From positions 3,150,001 through 3,214,000 of the forward strand of contig CP030277.1 in assembly GCA_003330885.1 (NCBI GenBank): 64,000 nucleotides of DNA, written 5' to 3'. The notes under the pieces are model-generated. The model was given only the letters and a program-made list of their open reading frames with translations. It had not been told where the DNA came from and searched no databases. Source of the DNA: Rhodobiaceae bacterium. Lineage in GTDB: Bacteria; Pseudomonadota; Alphaproteobacteria; Parvibaculales; Parvibaculaceae. Shown here piece by piece: positions 10,107 through 56,828 of this stretch (position 1 is the first letter of the stretch; every line of letters starts with the position of its first letter). The position numbers were made by a program, and so were the translations under genes.

Positions 10107-10498
10107 CTAGGCCGCTGTGGTCTTCCCTTTAAAGCCGCAAAAGTCGATGACTTTGCAGGACGGGCAGTCGGGCTTCCGCGCCTTACACACATAGCGGACC
10201 AAGCAGAGACAGAAAAACGCGGAGCGTTTTGCGTCCGTCTCCGCGACAGCAAACAACTAGGCCGCCGTTGTTTTTCCTTTGAAGCCGCAAAAGTCGATGA
10301 CTTTGCAGGACGGGCAGTCGGGTTTCCGCGCCTTACACACATAGCGGACCAAGCGGAGACAGAAAAACGCGGAGCGTTTTGCGTCCGTCTCCGCGACAGC
10401 AAACAACTAGGCCGCCGTTGTTTTTCCTTTGAAGCCACAATAGTCGACGACTTTGCAGGACGGGCAGTCGGGTTTCCGCGCCTTACACACATAGCGGC
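10107..10498 (-). repeat. Tandem triplication of the nth 3' end (150-bp period)
   Basis: Three copies of a 92-bp segment start at 10107, 10257 and 10407. The copy at 10407-10498 is the real 3' end of nth. The two outer copies still encode its iron-sulfur tail and TAG stop in register. Between copies is a 58-bp spacer holding a hairpin (GGAGACGGA ... GTCTCC with AAAACGC/GCGTTTT inside). Copies share different polymorphisms pairwise, as if converted piecemeal. Confidence 0.9.
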
Positions 10499-11665: not shown

Positions 11666-11758
11666 AGTCTCACTCCAAAGAGTCTTGGATCACTTACTGC
11701 GCCAGTGACTTCAATAAAATCGAACCTGAAGTCGGCAGCGCTAGAGTCGCGCTCCAGA

Positions 11759-11801
11759 GCTTTTCCATAAAAGTTGCAGACTTTTATGGTTCGAAAACGC
11801 G
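11759..11801. repeat. Solo hairpin related to the 62-bp tandem array
   Basis: The core is TTTTCC ... TAAAAGT, loop TGCAG, ACTTTTA ... GAAAAC. It matches the hairpin unit repeated at 50881-51200 in size, loop and TGGTTCG side bulge. Stem changes are compensatory: a C-G pair there is T-A here, and GTTTCC/GGAAAC becomes TTTTC/GAAAA. It lies between the convergent 3' ends of the DUF2244 gene and gpmA. Confidence 0.75.
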
Positions 11802-11813
11802 ACAAAATAGGAG

Positions 11814-29448: not shown

Positions 29449-30897
29449 GTGGCGGATGAAAAAGAACAAAGAGGTCGGGTTTCAGCCGCCATATTTATGT
29501 CCGTGGCTTTGGTCGGCATCATTGTATGCGCTGCAACCGCATTTGAGTTCTACAGTCTGGCTGCCATAGGCAAAGAACGCTTTCGTAGTGACACTGTTGT
29601 CGCAATTGTGACAGCCTACTTTCTTGGCGCGATCCTGATACTTTTCTTTTCCCGTGGACGGTTGCTCCGCCCGTTGGTCGGATCTGTCTTTTGCATGGCG
29701 AGCCTCTATCTGCTTAGTCAGATGGCAATCAGCTTGTTTGCTTCTACCGATTATCTCTATGCAATTGAAAATGCGATGTGGATGATCCCATTGCAGGTAT
29801 GTTTGTTTGCCACGCTTTCACGACGCATCGCCTACATTCTTGCAGGCTCCCTTTTCGTTCTGACCGTTTCTGTAATCTGCGCGTATTTCGTCCTTCTTGG
29901 ATTAAACCCGGCAGCGAATGCGGAGACATCTCTTCTTGTGCAAACAGCCTTCTCTCAAGCCGCAGCGCTTTTGCTGCTAGGCGCTTTGGCGACCTATCGT
30001 GATCTGGTCACGGTGGAATCAGCGCGTGTCAAAGCATTGGAGGAAAACGAAACTCTCCTGAAAAAGGAAGCGGCAAAGGCTGAAAAAGAACAAGAAAAAG
30101 CAATCCATGCCTTGAACAAGGCGGAAGAAGCAACGCGCGCGCGCGAAGCCTTCCTTGCATCCATGAGCCATGAACTTCGCACGCCACTCAACGCGATCAT
30201 CGGTTTTTCTCAGATCCTCGAAATGGGGCAAGCGGGGATCGCACGCACAGAAGAAAAGCGCCTGGAATACGCCAAAGACATTCGCAACAGTGGCGAACAC
30301 ATGTTGGGCCTTGTCGGCCAGGTTCTGGAATTTTCTCGGATCGAATCTGAAGGATGCGACATCGATCTTTCCGAACAGATGCTCTCTCCCATCGCAGAGG
30401 GTGCCATGCGCATGGTGGATGTGATCGCGTCGGCGAAAGAGGTGCAGCTTCTGCGCTATTGGGATCAGAGGTTCGATTTTCGCGTAGAAACAGATGAAAA
30501 AGCGCTTAGTCAGATACTGGTCAACCTGCTGACGAATGCAGTGAAGTTCACCCCGAAAGGCGGCCAGGTATGGCTTGTGCTCAAGACAGACGGGTCCAAA
30601 GGCCTGTGTATTGAGATTCAGGACAATGGCATCGGCATTCCAGCTGACAAGCTGCAAGACGTCTTCCGGCCATTTGTTCAAATAGGCGATGCGCGATGTG
30701 CGGGTGAAGGCGGAACCGGTCTCGGACTTTCGATTGTCAGTACCCTCGTTCGGGGATTAGGCGGAAAATTTGAGATTGAGAGTGCGGTAGGCACCGGTAC
30801 CTGCTGCCGTGTAACCCTGCCCGGTCTCCTGGCAACGGAAAGCGTGGAAGCGACCGAGCAAGCCGATCTGCCAATACAGGTTACCGCTAGCAACTGA
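29449..30897 (+). CDS. Membrane sensor histidine kinase 2 of 3
   Basis: The 482-residue paralogue has the same layout: about six membrane helices, a Lys/Glu-rich coiled coil (about 195-230), and HisKA with His241 in MSHELRTPLNAIIGFSQ. The HATPase follows with NLLTNAVKFTPKGG, DNGIGIP and GTGLGLSI. I place the start at GTG 29449 because GGAGG lies 9 bases ahead; in-frame TTG 29368 or ATG 29404 would add a basic leader not found in the paralogues. It is closer to kinase 3 than to kinase 1 in the catalytic core. No response regulator is adjacent. Confidence 0.88.
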   Translation: MADEKEQRGRVSAAIFMSVALVGIIVCAATAFEFYSLAAIGKERFRSDTVVAIVTAYFLGAILILFFSRGRLLRPLVGSVFCMASLYLLSQMAISLFASTDYLYAIENAMWMIPLQVCLFATLSRRIAYILAGSLFVLTVSVICAYFVLLGLNPAANAETSLLVQTAFSQAAALLLLGALATYRDLVTVESARVKALEENETLLKKEAAKAEKEQEKAIHALNKAEEATRAREAFLASMSHELRTPLNAIIGFSQILEMGQAGIARTEEKRLEYAKDIRNSGEHMLGLVGQVLEFSRIESEGCDIDLSEQMLSPIAEGAMRMVDVIASAKEVQLLRYWDQRFDFRVETDEKALSQILVNLLTNAVKFTPKGGQVWLVLKTDGSKGLCIEIQDNGIGIPADKLQDVFRPFVQIGDARCAGEGGTGLGLSIVSTLVRGLGGKFEIESAVGTGTCCRVTLPGLLATESVEATEQADLPIQVTASN

Positions 30898-48637: not shown

Positions 48638-48760
48638 GCGCGAATTTAGTCCCCAATCTCCTCCACAAATTCCTCCATGTGAGGCCCTTGAAGTAACTCT
48701 TTCTCAAGCTTGGCCCCCGACAATCAAGGCACGGTTTAATTCAGATTGTCTGGACCGCCC

Positions 48761-50878
48761 ATGTTTGCCGCGTCGATTGTTTTTCCTGTTCTTGCTATTG
48801 CCGCGATCCTTGGCGGGGCGGCAATCGGGTGCGCGCTTTTTCTCTGGCGCAGGCTCCGCGAGCGCGGCATCGAAGTAAACGAACTCCTCGAAAAAGTAGA
48901 GCTCCTCAACGACTCAAACTGGGAACTGAAAGAGAGCGCGGAACGCTATCGCGATCTTGTTGCCAATCAGGGCGACATCATCCTGCGCAAAGATCTGGAT
49001 GGACGGCTTACCTTCGTCAATCAGGTTTATTGTGACACGTTTGATACGACCCGCGGCACAGCGCTCGGTAATCCTTTCACGCCGACACTGCCAGAAGGTG
49101 AGAAGCCGCGGCTTCTGGGTGACTTTGCAGGCCTGGCACTTCCTCCCTATCGCGTTCGATATGACCAGCGAGTGGAGACCGTGCGCGGCCCCCGTTGGTT
49201 CGTCTGGGAAGAATTTGCAATCCGTGATGATGATGGTCGCCTGAGCGAAGTGCAGACTGTTGGTCGTGACATCACAGACCGGAAAGAAACAGAAGAGCGT
49301 CTCGGTGAAGCGCTGGACCAGGCGGAAGCTGCGAACCGGTCCAAAGGTCAGTTCCTGGCCACCATGAGCCATGAAATCCGTACACCAATGAATGGTGTGC
49401 TCGGCATGATCCGTTTCCTGCTGGACACAGATCTGTCGCCTGCTCAGCGCTCCCATGCGCGAGCGGTGCAGCGCTCCTCTGAAGCTCTGCTCACCATCAT
49501 CAATGACATTCTGGATTTCTCAAAAATTGAGTCCGGAACTTTTGATCTGGCAACAGCGCCTTTCGACATTAATGCGCTTATTGAGCAGGCATGCGAGCTG
49601 ATGACGCCGCGAGCATTTGAAAAGCATATTGATATTGCTGGCTATGTGCAGGCGGACGTCCCGACACATGTGATTGGCGATGAATCGCGCCTTCGCCAGA
49701 TCCTGATCAATCTGATCGGCAATGCCGTCAAATTCACCGATGAGGGAGGCGTCTTTGTCTCTGTCCGCGTTGGTACTAAAGACGAGAATGGCGAGGTCGA
49801 GAGCCTTATCATTGATGTCGAAGACACCGGTATTGGACTGTCTGAAGAAGACGGTCAGGCAATCTTTGCTGAGTTTGCCCAGGCCGAACAGGGGCATGCC
49901 CGCCGTTTTGAGGGCACAGGCCTTGGTCTCACAATTACCAAACGCTTGGCCCAAGCCATGGGGGGCGATGTAACGGTCCGCAGCAAGCTCGGCCAGGGCT
50001 CCTGCTTTTCTGTATCGCTCAGCCTTGCAACTGTTTCAGACGACATGCCCCGCTTGCCGCTCCTGCTTGAAGGAAAGACGGCGTGTGTAACCGTTTCTGC
50101 GCCGATGAGCGGGCGTGCTGTTTCGTCAATGCTGCGAGACATGGGGGCGGATGTAAAAATCACAGAGACGCCTCTGCCGGGCGCAGATATCATCGTGACG
50201 CAATCCTCATTGGCTGAAGAAAGCTGGAAAGTTGATGGCGCCTCGGTCTTTTTGTTGACGTCACCCGGTGACACGCTGGCGGACGATTTGGGTCCAGGAT
50301 ATGCGGGCTACTTGGTACGCCCTGTAAGAGCTGAGTCATTTGCAAACCGCATTGCCGCCCCGCAACCAGAAGCCCGTCCGGAGGCCCAAGCGTCCCCTGC
50401 TCTCGACAGCAAAGTCGAAAGTGATTTTACTGAGGTTGAAGACGCGAGTCCGATTACGCCCGCAACTGAAGTGAAAGCAGGGGCTCTGGCTGTTCTTGTT
50501 GCAGAAGACAATGAACTCAATGCAACGCTCACGCGCATGATGGTGGAGCGTGCAGGCCACGTGCCGCACATGGTGGAAAGCGGTGTAGAAGCGCTGGCGG
50601 CGCTCGAAGACGCGGCGCCTGGCACCTACGACCTGGTCTTCATGGATCTTCATATGCCGCTCATGGATGGGTATGAAGCGACCCGCCAAATTCGCAAACT
50701 GGGACCGGTCAAGGGTGCCCTGCCTATTGTTGCACTGACAGCCAATGTAATGGCCGAAGACAAACAGGCTTGTCTGGAGGCCGGCATGGATGACTATCTC
50801 TCCAAGCCCGTTGACCCGTCTGACCTTGCCGCCATGCTTGAAGCTTGGCGCGGCAAAAAGTCTGATAAAGCGGCCTAA
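48761..50878 (+). CDS. Hybrid sensor histidine kinase/response regulator
   Basis: The 705-residue protein has one N-terminal membrane helix (about 5-28), a PAS domain (about 55-180), HisKA with His204 in MSHEIRTPMNGVLGM, and HATPase with NLIGNAVKFTDEGG. The region at about 435-530 folds like a receiver but lacks the acidic pocket, and a complete C-terminal receiver carries Asp629 in VFMDLHMPLMDG. The architecture resembles ArcB/BarA-type or CckA-like hybrids without an Hpt domain. It ends three bases before a 62-bp hairpin array. Signal and phosphorelay partners are unknown. Confidence 0.9.
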   Translation: MFAASIVFPVLAIAAILGGAAIGCALFLWRRLRERGIEVNELLEKVELLNDSNWELKESAERYRDLVANQGDIILRKDLDGRLTFVNQVYCDTFDTTRGTALGNPFTPTLPEGEKPRLLGDFAGLALPPYRVRYDQRVETVRGPRWFVWEEFAIRDDDGRLSEVQTVGRDITDRKETEERLGEALDQAEAANRSKGQFLATMSHEIRTPMNGVLGMIRFLLDTDLSPAQRSHARAVQRSSEALLTIINDILDFSKIESGTFDLATAPFDINALIEQACELMTPRAFEKHIDIAGYVQADVPTHVIGDESRLRQILINLIGNAVKFTDEGGVFVSVRVGTKDENGEVESLIIDVEDTGIGLSEEDGQAIFAEFAQAEQGHARRFEGTGLGLTITKRLAQAMGGDVTVRSKLGQGSCFSVSLSLATVSDDMPRLPLLLEGKTACVTVSAPMSGRAVSSMLRDMGADVKITETPLPGADIIVTQSSLAEESWKVDGASVFLLTSPGDTLADDLGPGYAGYLVRPVRAESFANRIAAPQPEARPEAQASPALDSKVESDFTEVEDASPITPATEVKAGALAVLVAEDNELNATLTRMMVERAGHVPHMVESGVEALAALEDAAPGTYDLVFMDLHMPLMDGYEATRQIRKLGPVKGALPIVALTANVMAEDKQACLEAGMDDYLSKPVDPSDLAAMLEAWRGKKSDKAA

Positions 50879-50880
50879 AG

Positions 50881-51200
50881 CGTTTCCAACAAAAGTTGCT
50901 GACTTTTGTGGTTCGGAAACGCGACCAGCGAAAAGACAGGAACGTTTCCAACAAAAGTTGCTGACTTTTGTGGTTCGGAAACGCGACCAGCGAAAAGACA
51001 GGAACGTTTCCAACAAAAGTTGCTGACTTTTGTGGTTCGGAAACGCGACCAGCGAAAAGACAGGAACGTTTCCAACAAAAGTTGCTGACTTTTGTGGTTC
51101 GGAAACGCGATCAGCGAAAAGACAGGAACGTTTTCAACTACAGTTGCAGACTTTTGTGGTTTGGAAACGCGATGGGTCCAAGGACAAGAACGTTTCCATC
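50881..51200. repeat. 62-bp tandem hairpin array
   Basis: Five units start at 50881, 50943, 51005, 51067 and 51129, and a sixth truncated one at 51191. Units 1-4 are nearly identical; unit 5 has diverged. Each contains a stem-loop, CGTTTCC ... CAAAAGT, loop TGCTG, ACTTTTG ... GGAAACG, and a linker GCGACCAGCGAAAAGACAGG. The array fills the gap between the convergent hybrid kinase and GNAT genes. Apparent ORFs through it are repeat artefacts (62 is not a multiple of three). A diverged solo copy lies at 11759-11801. Confidence 0.95.
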
Positions 51201-51239
51201 AGTAGGTCCAGGCATCAGCGCCCCCAGGACTGCGGCACC

Positions 51240-51707
51240 CTAAAGGTCCAGTCTCAAGCGAGGCAGAGTGCGTCCTGGAATAGATGCTGACGGTGAAGAA
51301 CCTGTGAGCCTGTAGCCGCACTTTTCATAAAACCCCTGAGCATTAGGGTCCGCATCAACATCAATGTGGGCGGCACCTTGTGCCCGCGCTGCGTCCTCAG
51401 CATGGGCCATCAATCGCGCCCCGAGCCCCGACCCGATAAAGGGCGTGTCCACAAACATGTCTTCCAGCTCGCGCACATCACCCCGGTCGCCCGGTGCAAG
51501 AGCGACCATGCCGGCGATCACACCGCCTGCTTCCGCCACGGTTATGTCTTCGTCAGCAATGCGCTCAGGCGTAATGGTGAGTTCTGTAATGCAGGCCTTC
51601 ATGAAAGCGTCGTCATACCCCCAATAGGCTTTGGACCGGAGCGCCAGTGCCGTGAGAGCTCTTGCATCGTCTGGAACAGCAGGGCGGAGGAATATCGACT
51701 TGTCCAT
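51240..51707 (-). CDS. GNAT-family N-acetyltransferase
   Basis: The 155-residue protein has the GNAT core: IFLRPAVPDDARALTALAL at the N-terminus, FVDTPFIGSGLGARLMAHAE (motif A, acetyl-CoA binding, with the G-x-G-x-G/A pattern near residue 92) and NAQGFYEKCGYRLTG (motif B). The substrate cannot be inferred. Start taken at MDKSIFLRP; four codons more are possible. It stands alone, convergent with the hybrid kinase across the hairpin array. Confidence 0.87.
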   Translation of the reverse strand: MDKSIFLRPAVPDDARALTALALRSKAYWGYDDAFMKACITELTITPERIADEDITVAEAGGVIAGMVALAPGDRGDVRELEDMFVDTPFIGSGLGARLMAHAEDAARAQGAAHIDVDADPNAQGFYEKCGYRLTGSSPSASIPGRTLPRLRLDL

Positions 51708-51782
51708 TCTCTTGTCCAATATGGTTGGGCTGTTTTGTCCCTCATGTTAGCAAATAGCTCGGGATAGTAAGAGGCTGATTCG

Positions 51783-53150
51783 ATTAGCGAGCAGACACAA
51801 AACCGAGAAGATGCGTCGCTGCTGCAAAAGCTGAATGCAGCCTGGCAGGTCTACACTGAGCGCAATGTACTGATCATTCTGCTGCTTGGGTTTTCGTCCG
51901 GGTTGCCGCTGGCGCTGACGGGTTCAACGCTATCCCTCTGGATGGCGGATGAAGGGGTTGATCTAGGTACCATCGGCCTCTTTTCCCTTGTTGGCTTGCC
52001 CTATGTCCTGAAGTTTCTGTGGGCGCCATTGGTTGATGCGGCGCCCGTTCCACTTTTCACACGCTGGCTCGGGCGGCGGCGGGGGTGGCTCGTCGCAACA
52101 CAGCTCTCCCTCGCACTGGCGATTGGGGCAATGGGACTGGTTGATCCCGTGCGCGCACCCTTATTGATGGCGCTCGCCGCTGTCATTGTCGCGTTTCTGT
52201 CTGCCACTCAAGACATTGTCATTGATGCCTTTCGGGTCGAGACACTGGATGAAACAGAATATGCCGCAGGCATGGCAAACTATGTTGCCGCCTACCGCGT
52301 CGCGCTACTGGTTGCAGGCGCAGGGACCGTATCAGCTCTGGGCATCTTCGAAGGCCTGGGCGCACCATCAGCCACGCTTTGGTCCTGGGCCTATGGCTTG
52401 ATGGCGACGTTGATGGGCATTGGGCTTGTCGCCTCTTTGTTCGCAACCGAACCCGCTGATAGCGAAAAGATTGAAAGTCAGCGCGAAGCACTCAACTGGG
52501 CAGAGCGGTTCAATCACGCAACCGTTAGTCCCTTTGTCGATTTTATGAAGAAACCGGGATGGTTCCTGGTTTTGTCTTTCGTTCTTTTGTTCAAGTTTGG
52601 CGATGCCTTCGCTGGTGCCATGGTTACGCCTTTCGCAATCGGCATCGGTTTTGAGAAGACCGTCTATGCCTATATTGCAAATGGGATTGGGTTGCCTGCT
52701 GCACTGATAGGTGGATTCGCTGGTGGATTTTTGGGCCGTATGATCAGCATGCGGAACGCGCTCTGGGTTGGTGGCATTTTGCAGATGGTGTCGAATCTGG
52801 CGTTTTGCTGGTTGGCCTGGGTAGGCCCGGCGACGGAAGCGTTGGCCATCACGGTGGGCATTGAGGCATTCACCGGGGGCATGGGCACAGTCATCTTTGT
52901 TGCCTACCTGTCGAGCCTCTGCGCCTCACGCGAGTTTACGGCCACTCAGTTTGCCTTGCTGTCAGCGTTGGCAGCAGTTGGGCGAACCGTGCTGTCGGCC
53001 AGTGCGGGATTTATCGCCGCCGCTATTGGCTGGGTGCCGTTTTTCATTCTCACCACGCTGGCGGCGGTTCCTGGCCTTATTCTGCTCGCCTGGCTTGGTC
53101 ACAAAAAACTGCTTGATGGTGTAAACCCCTTGAGCGCGGGACAAAAATAG
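51783..53150 (+). CDS. AmpG-like MFS permease, probable ATT start
   Basis: The 455-residue protein is a 12-helix MFS transporter of the AmpG group, which imports muropeptides during peptidoglycan recycling. NVLIILLLGFSSGLPLALTG at about residues 31-50 is the AmpG first helix, and VGLPYVLKFLWAPLVD and ATQDIVIDAFRVE follow. The reading frame is open from 51771, but the only ATG/GTG/TTG candidates lie inside or after helix 1 (TTG 51903). ATT 51783 has AAGAGG upstream with an 8-base spacer and gives a normal N-terminus. The rare start is inferred. No beta-lactamase or ampR gene is adjacent. Confidence 0.85.
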   Translation: MSEQTQNREDASLLQKLNAAWQVYTERNVLIILLLGFSSGLPLALTGSTLSLWMADEGVDLGTIGLFSLVGLPYVLKFLWAPLVDAAPVPLFTRWLGRRRGWLVATQLSLALAIGAMGLVDPVRAPLLMALAAVIVAFLSATQDIVIDAFRVETLDETEYAAGMANYVAAYRVALLVAGAGTVSALGIFEGLGAPSATLWSWAYGLMATLMGIGLVASLFATEPADSEKIESQREALNWAERFNHATVSPFVDFMKKPGWFLVLSFVLLFKFGDAFAGAMVTPFAIGIGFEKTVYAYIANGIGLPAALIGGFAGGFLGRMISMRNALWVGGILQMVSNLAFCWLAWVGPATEALAITVGIEAFTGGMGTVIFVAYLSSLCASREFTATQFALLSALAAVGRTVLSASAGFIAAAIGWVPFFILTTLAAVPGLILLAWLGHKKLLDGVNPLSAGQK

Positions 53151-56509: not shown

Positions 56510-56828
56510 TTCGGGCCTTCCGCGCAATAAATGAACTCAAACGGCGCGTAGGCGTACCTCATATTGCGTGGGCTGGCTAGCCCTGATTCCAAAATTACGA
56601 CAGAAAGTGGGGCTTTTCTGGCTTTGCCAGGTGAAGTGTGCCGGTTCACCGTCCGGAAACGCCTCAAAATGGAGCCGTTTTGACCTTGTTGAGCCTCAAA
56701 TGTGGCTTTATCCTCGGGTTTTGAGGACGTGTTGTGTTTTGTAGGATTTCCATCGGCGCCAAAAAAACGCGTGAAATTGGCGCGATTTTTGGCCCTGTAT
56801 AAACGCAACACGGTTTTGAGCACCCCAC
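56510..56828. other. Divergent maeB/GNAT intergenic region
   Basis: These 319 bp carry both promoters. Visible structures are a hairpin GGTGAA ... TTCACC near 56630-56650 and the palindrome at 56758-56793 described separately. No ORF is convincing. Confidence 0.6.
56758..56793. promoter_or_regulatory. Palindrome and -10-like box before the GNAT gene
   Basis: GCCAAAAA (56758-56765) pairs with TTTTTGGC (56786-56793), and CGCG pairs with CGCG inside. TATAAA follows at 56798-56803, 26 bases before the GNAT start, so the dyad would cover the -35 region. It could be an operator; no regulator is known. Confidence 0.45.

Follow-up and report, generated by a model that had tools for sequence, protein, structure and literature searches.

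A tandem hairpin array between a kinase and an acetyltransferase gene belongs to a dispersed palindrome family whose copies lie almost all on one strand of the chromosome

The DNA analyzed here is a stretch of 64,000 nucleotides, termed the window, from a Rhodobiaceae bacterium (contig CP030277.1, positions 3,150,001 to 3,214,000). A gene for a hybrid histidine kinase and a frame for a GNAT-like acetyltransferase face each other in it, ending at 50878 and 51240, and the region between them carries a tandem repeat (Table 1). Tandem Repeats Finder placed this repeat at 50881-51172 with a period of 62, 4.7 copies and 97% matches, and the 62-nt spacing was recovered by a second, separate repeat search. 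Units 1-4 were found to be mutually 98.4-100% identical and unit 5 was found to be diverged; over all ten unit pairs the mean identity was 91.3%, with 79.0% as the lowest value. An earlier reading of the sequence alone had described a tandem array of five 62-bp units, four of them nearly identical, at a convergent junction, with a long stem and a fixed side bulge in each unit, and all of this was borne out. Its statement that the array starts three bases after the kinase stop codon is right for the unit phase chosen there (50881), but the first stem of unit 1 begins at 50880, the second base past the stop codon TAA (50876-50878). A second tandem array with a 150-bp unit (2.6 copies, 95% matches) was found at 10107-10497 of the window. 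It contains weak matches to the hairpin model described below at 10199 (25.3 bits) and 10349 (29.6 bits), and another weak match (23.7 bits, + strand) lies at 56617-56668.

Table 1. Features of the array junction and the dispersed family member, in window coordinates.
Feature	Position	Strand	Remark
Dispersed family member, lone in the window, diverged	11755..11806	+	Orientation as array
Upstream gene, hybrid histidine kinase with receiver domain	48746..50878	+	Name read from translation
Convergent intergenic region with array	50879..51239	.	361-base gap between kinase and GNAT-like frames
Unit 1 hairpin	50880..50922	+	Outer 8-bp stem GCGTTTCC/GGAAACGC, inner 9-pair stem, bulge A vs GGTTC
Tandem unit 1	50881..50942	+	62 nt, hairpin plus spacer GACCAGCGAAAAGACAGGAA
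Tandem unit 2	50943..51004	+	Identical to unit 1
Tandem unit 3	51005..51066	+	Identical to unit 1
Tandem unit 4	51067..51128	+	One difference from unit 1
Tandem unit 5	51129..51190	+	Diverged; hairpin still matched at 44.7 bits
Left arm ACGTTTCC of apparent truncated sixth unit	51190..51197	+	By eye
Downstream convergent frame, GNAT-like acetyltransferase	51240..51719	-	Name read from translation

The hairpin in each unit is 43 nt long and has two stems, the outer of 7-8 pairs and the inner of up to 9, with a side bulge of one nucleotide (A) against five (GGTTC). Folded as single-stranded DNA, the units were far more stable than shuffled sequence (strand z values of -4.51 and -6.22 in unit 1, and of -3.50 and -4.74 in unit 4). 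The RNA fold, at -18.5 kcal/mol, surpassed shuffles only modestly (z -1.49; 18 of 200 shuffles as good). A pattern describing the palindromic arms matched once in the window and in none of 100 shuffles; genome-wide it matched at 69 places, compared to none for the reversed control pattern. The array is therefore not due to chance.

The stems were found to covary. In a sequence alignment (A1) the double-change cells numbered 20, compared to 7.5 for shuffles, and none of 500 shuffles reached as high. In a model-fitted alignment (A2), which is biased towards structure, 14 of 17 pairs carried double changes and 202 cells were counted against 66.4 in shuffles (0/500). The family has sub-types in which the inner stem sequence varies while pairing is maintained.

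A terminator scan of 50700-51800 found neither a T-run nor a terminator in the array, and the sole terminator-like site (51714-51730) lies outside it. Rfam gave no match in the window at gathering scores and none at E ≤ 1 within 50800-51300. A known RNA family was rejected on this result, and an intrinsic terminator on the absent T-run and on the orientation of the copies relative to genes.

The same kinase and acetyltransferase genes flank the orthologous junction in two sister species, G002 and G003. The G002 junction has five units with a period of 61 and 96% matches, and differs from that of the window's own genome (G000; 3.86 Mb, one contig) in spacer and arm sequence. Only a 29-nt remnant (18.4 bits) was found at the G003 junction. 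Unit identity was 65.4% between G000 and G002, compared to 91.3% within G000 and 88.8% within G002. With five units in G000, five of another sequence in G002 and a remnant in G003, the copy number changes, and the proposal that it is variable was upheld, here by comparison between species. The sequence-only reading also inferred a recent amplification; this is compatible with our data, but units that are alike within and unlike between species fit separate amplification or concerted evolution equally well. Either an old copy thus multiplied separately in each species or the arrays evolve in concert, and in G003 it has decayed.

When two units were used as query against their own genome, 22 matches were obtained, the last few of them weak. 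A covariance model built from 22 copies (R1) identified at least 97 places in G000 at E ≤ 1, and a second model built from 100 copies (R2) identified at least 121 at E ≤ 0.01. In the whole-genome scans of G000, G002 and G003 the best 150 of about 1,770-1,975 first-look candidates were scored per genome, so weak copies are under-counted and the counts are lower bounds. R1 matched at E ≤ 0.01 in 9 of 21 relatives, and the six members of the genus had 91, 40, 92, 103, 15 and 7 matches. Two stretches of BAOK01000001.1, 'Alpha proteobacterium Mf 1.05b.01', also contain a 37-nt core of the family, and the superfamily core pattern GAAAAGTGN{2,8}CGGTTTTC matched in 22 of 387 genomes. The sole large single-contig case outside the genus, G313, had 13 forward and 3 reverse cores (13 and 4 with a second pattern); its GC skew is too weak to place the arms, and the reversed copies there could fit an arm-linked pattern.

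Other small tandem clusters were seen in G000 (2227549-2227719, 2072190-2072363, 2662949-2663210 and 282075-282186) and in G003 C2 (119160-119330 and 2530199-2530373), which makes local multiplication a recurrent event within the hairpin family. The G000 cluster at 2227549, with three 59-nt units, is retained in G003. By eye, an A-rich linker lies downstream of many copies and leads to a second hairpin, AGAGCC...GGCTCT in form, examples in G000 being near 94310, 1861712, 2205812 and 3139301. This hints at a full-length element with two hairpins.

The copies are mostly intergenic. According to codon-score gene calls made in this analysis, 87 of the 94 plus-strand R1 places in G000 lie outside called reading frames and 7 inside. 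Thirty of them lie between convergent genes (><), 30 between genes that both run against the copy (<<), 18 between genes that both run with it (>>) and 9 between divergent genes (<>). These context counts ruled out gene direction as what sets the orientation. The two ends of the copies differ with respect to stop codons: 27 of the 48 copies behind a gene ending towards them start 0-5 nt past its stop codon, and none of 60 3' ends was found within 0-5 nt of one.

Palindromic repeats scattered over a chromosome are nothing unusual; as a rule they face both ways, or their direction follows that of genes or of replication. In the sampled stretches of G000 the GC skew was positive in 9/9 on one side and negative in 12/12 on the other. 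The G002 skew was as expected in 9/10 and 10/10 stretches, with one origin stretch slightly negative. In G003 the skew switches near 0.2 Mb of contig 1 and near 1.2 Mb of contig 2, and both contigs contain parts of both arms. Two exact parS sites 2 kb apart were found in each genome (G000, 3.119-3.121 Mb; G002, 3.590-3.592 Mb; G003 contig 1, 0.197-0.199 Mb), and a reversed parS control with one mismatch allowed matched at one place in G000 and nowhere in G002 or G003. Each of the three genomes has two sign changes of the skew, one at parS and one on roughly the other side of the circle. In the sampled stretches of these genomes the skew is unequal in strength between the arms, about 0.02 against 0.075 in G000, and this is mirrored in sense in G003.

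With R2 at E ≤ 0.01 and the best 150 candidates scored, 116 of 121 places in G000 were on the plus strand. After merging of tandem copies 102 of 107 remained on this strand (P about 1e-24 against even odds), divided between the arms as 49/51 and 53/56. R1 placed 91 of 92 matches on the plus strand in G002 (51/52 and 35/35 by arm when merged) and 102 of 103 on the minus strand in G003 (46/46 and 42/43); the last count is for R1 alone, two further reversed matches (L200:7312 and L201:9196) having surfaced only in a later local scan. Since the G003 map is colinear with that of G000 in reverse, the polarity is common to these three near-complete genomes. A local two-strand cmsearch of 61 stretches (1.264 Mb, all candidates scored, some stretches picked for holding known copies) assigned 51/53 matches in G000, 27/28 in G002 and 40/42 in G003 to the majority strand, and the two exceptions in G003 include a plus match (L153:14689) that overlaps a stronger minus match. 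An orientation-neutral palindrome pattern gave, among the 50 of its 69 matches listed, 46 forward, 1 reversed and 3 unassignable copies by eye. The eight close clusters in G000 were all one-directional. In the draft relatives G001 and G004, counting contigs with at least two matches, 52/53 and 17/18 matches were on the majority strand of their contig and 12/13 and 3/4 contigs were uniform; these contigs may each sit in one arm, so absolute and arm-linked rules are not separated there. Altogether, nearly all copies found in the three genomes have one absolute orientation on both replication arms, in G000 also irrespective of gene direction, and reversed copies make up about 2-5% of the family. 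Replication as what sets the orientation was ruled out by the skew, parS and the per-arm counts.

The polarity does not reflect a strand bias of the chromosome in general. Among 7,948 8-mers in the 1.264 Mb sampled, after masking of the elements by pattern, which may be incomplete, none had a same-sense bias on the two arms that came near that of the family; the most biased one reached 32:11 and 32:6. Ordinary 8-mers tend to flip between the arms (correlation -0.16).

Copies have been gained or lost between the species. At orthologous sites in the sampled stretches, 12 distinct G000 copies were absent from G002 or G003 (14 entries, of which 3161755 with a 183-nt interval was removed, leaving 13 for 12 copies), and 5 copies of G002 or G003 were absent from G000 (9 entries minus four, L129 twice and L137 twice, with intervals of 80-90 nt). 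All were in the majority direction. Two entries scored as present for 3201000 are array-to-array matches and do not represent orthology. The five reversed copies in G000 are located at 29952, 882266, 2388147, 2593947 and 3019844. The copy at 882266 is common to G000 and G002 and that at 2388147 to G000 and G003, so a reversed copy can persist. G003 lacks those at 29952 and 2593947, and neither relative has the one at 3019844; as the reversed copies were looked up for being reversed, their turnover is not comparable with that of the majority set. The aligned flanks of all five are colinear with the relatives, and local inversion was rejected for this reason. The reversed copy at 882266 (1431559 in G002) lies near the terminus skew switch in both species. 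One occupied/empty pair, G000 792978 compared to G003, has CTAG on both sides of the copy at a stop codon, a possible target-site duplication in a single case; the other empty sites have extra indels.

Like the REP/BIME elements of enterobacteria, the family consists of imperfect palindromes that are short, scattered through intergenic DNA and often situated behind a gene, with more than 100 copies and occasional clusters. REPs have a conserved GTRG-type tetranucleotide as 5' foot, whereas the foot of the present family, judged by eye from the printed copies, is mostly TAGA/TAAA before GC. Y1_Tnp (PF01797) was found in none of 8 genomes of the genus and family, while the control was positive in 5 of 14 named genomes, including E. 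coli and Caulobacter; a RAYT-type REP was rejected on this absence. E. coli REPs occur on both strands in similar numbers according to an excerpt of PMC12306157. The hairpin family differs in lying on one strand (102/107 merged places) and in that its clusters do not alternate. KOPS, AIMS and Chi are chromosome-wide strand-biased motifs that flip at origin and terminus; they share with the present family a chromosome-wide bias in DNA strand, but the hairpin family keeps one strand on both arms. RIME and Bru-RS are, like the present family, alphaproteobacterial, intergenic, palindromic repeats. RIME of Rhizobium and Bru-RS of Brucella are listed among palindromic repeats in PMC2267715, the accessible part of which held no mention of their orientation. 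The Br-REP1 and Br-REP2 repeats of Bradyrhizobium are palindromic, located in 3'-UTRs and in one case at a convergent gene junction, and no orientation rule for them was found in the portion of the article available (PMC5082802). They too are alphaproteobacterial palindromic repeats, but, judged by eye, their printed consensus sequences appear unlike the hairpin family. All 36 EcoP15 sites of phage T7 are in one orientation, and the enzyme can cause such sets (PMC3874151, in part). These are short enzyme sites on a phage genome, whereas the present elements are hairpins on a bacterial chromosome. Searches of open-access literature, with most subscription papers outside their scope, turned up no description of a one-strand repeat family of this kind.

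We favor, with a probability of roughly 0.55, the interpretation that the array arose by local tandem multiplication of a DNA element of the REP/MITE kind, and that such elements are inserted or retained in line with a polarity of the whole chromosome. A hairpin of about 43 nt, belonging to a genus-level family, would act at the DNA level as a non-autonomous element and would be gained and lost between genes, in many cases directly after a stop codon. Mobility would be the source of new copies, and slippage or unequal exchange between adjacent units would multiply a copy in place. A strand-committed, DNA-tracking or single-strand insertion route would leave nearly all copies on the same strand of the circle, so that the polarity would arise at insertion and not by later selection. 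Strand-committed insertion, selection against opposed pairs and a directional or strand-specific signal could each account for the polarity, and insertion is put first since copies are gained and lost and reversed ones survive. Against it, the search for PF01797 found no mobilizing enzyme, and a clean target-site duplication could not be demonstrated. Three reversed copies of G000 have no counterpart in a relative, so the rule is broken by some of the copies that turned over, and the two others are common to two species. A selective cause of the polarity is the less likely alternative.

Well below even odds, though a serious competitor, is a functional polar DNA signal, in which a tracking or strand-marking machine (for example a one-way translocase, a barrier to loop extruders or an enzyme that acts on copies paired head to head) reads the copies and reversed ones are selected against. 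The same strand on both arms is expected only from a pairwise or whole-circle rule, the stems are kept by covariation, and the lack of any 8-mer with a similar same-sense bias on both arms in the 1.264 Mb sampled likewise favors such a signal. The T7 EcoP15 sites are a precedent for 36 sites in one orientation (excerpt of PMC3874151); for a two-site, type III-like enzyme they serve as an analogy. However, about 2-5% of copies persist in reverse, two of them common to two species, and many copies have been gained or lost between sister species, which is unlike essential sites. Nor do we know of a protein partner for the hairpin element.

An RNA-level 3' element, that is a terminator, attenuator or mRNA stabilizer staged by the five units, we consider unlikely. 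It would agree with strong hairpins behind stop codons (27/48) and with a REP-like 3'-UTR role, established for the REPs of E. coli and suggested for Br-REPs (PMC5082802, part of the text). However, the array has neither a T-run nor a terminator call, its RNA fold z is only -1.49, and 30 of the 94 plus-strand copies are antisense to both neighbors. As a near-palindrome folds on either strand, a role in RNA would need no strand bias. Staged transcription termination, as proposed in the sequence-only reading, is not upheld, since there is no terminator in the array and the family orientation ignores the flanking genes. Protein binding and a supercoiling site, the other functions put forward there, would be candidate roles. 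Very improbable is a by-product of old unidirectional replication or transfer, for instance conjugal from one oriT, with the present GC skew misleading as to the arms: absolute polarity is the expected trace of a one-directional DNA process and the arms are unequal in skew strength (about 0.02 against 0.075), but all three genomes show a single skew switch at parS and another on roughly the other side, ordinary 8-mers tend to flip between arms (-0.16), and species-specific copies keep the polarity.

Returning to a DNA-level element with chromosome-wide polarity, a speculative and doubtful extension is that the copies serve as strand labels for the whole circular chromosome, with the five-unit array as a strong label. 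If so, a strand-specific mark or protein would make sister chromosomes differ after each replication, one having a labeled and the other an unlabeled old strand, and the cell could distinguish the sisters or move DNA in a single direction around the circle. A link to template-strand age in bacteria is discussed in PMC3561757, as far as its available text goes.

The array unit belongs to a chromosome-wide family of one polarity, which is invisible from the window sequence alone. The polarity of this family in these marine bacteria is not predicted by the usual explanations for repeats, and being absolute on a two-arm circle it points to a cause blind to the direction of both transcription and replication. 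Because sister species differ in unit number, the array at the kinase junction offers a good way to approach this cause. Identifying it would bring to light an uncommon way of insertion or, alternatively, a process for which the chromosome is a single, continuous track with a direction.
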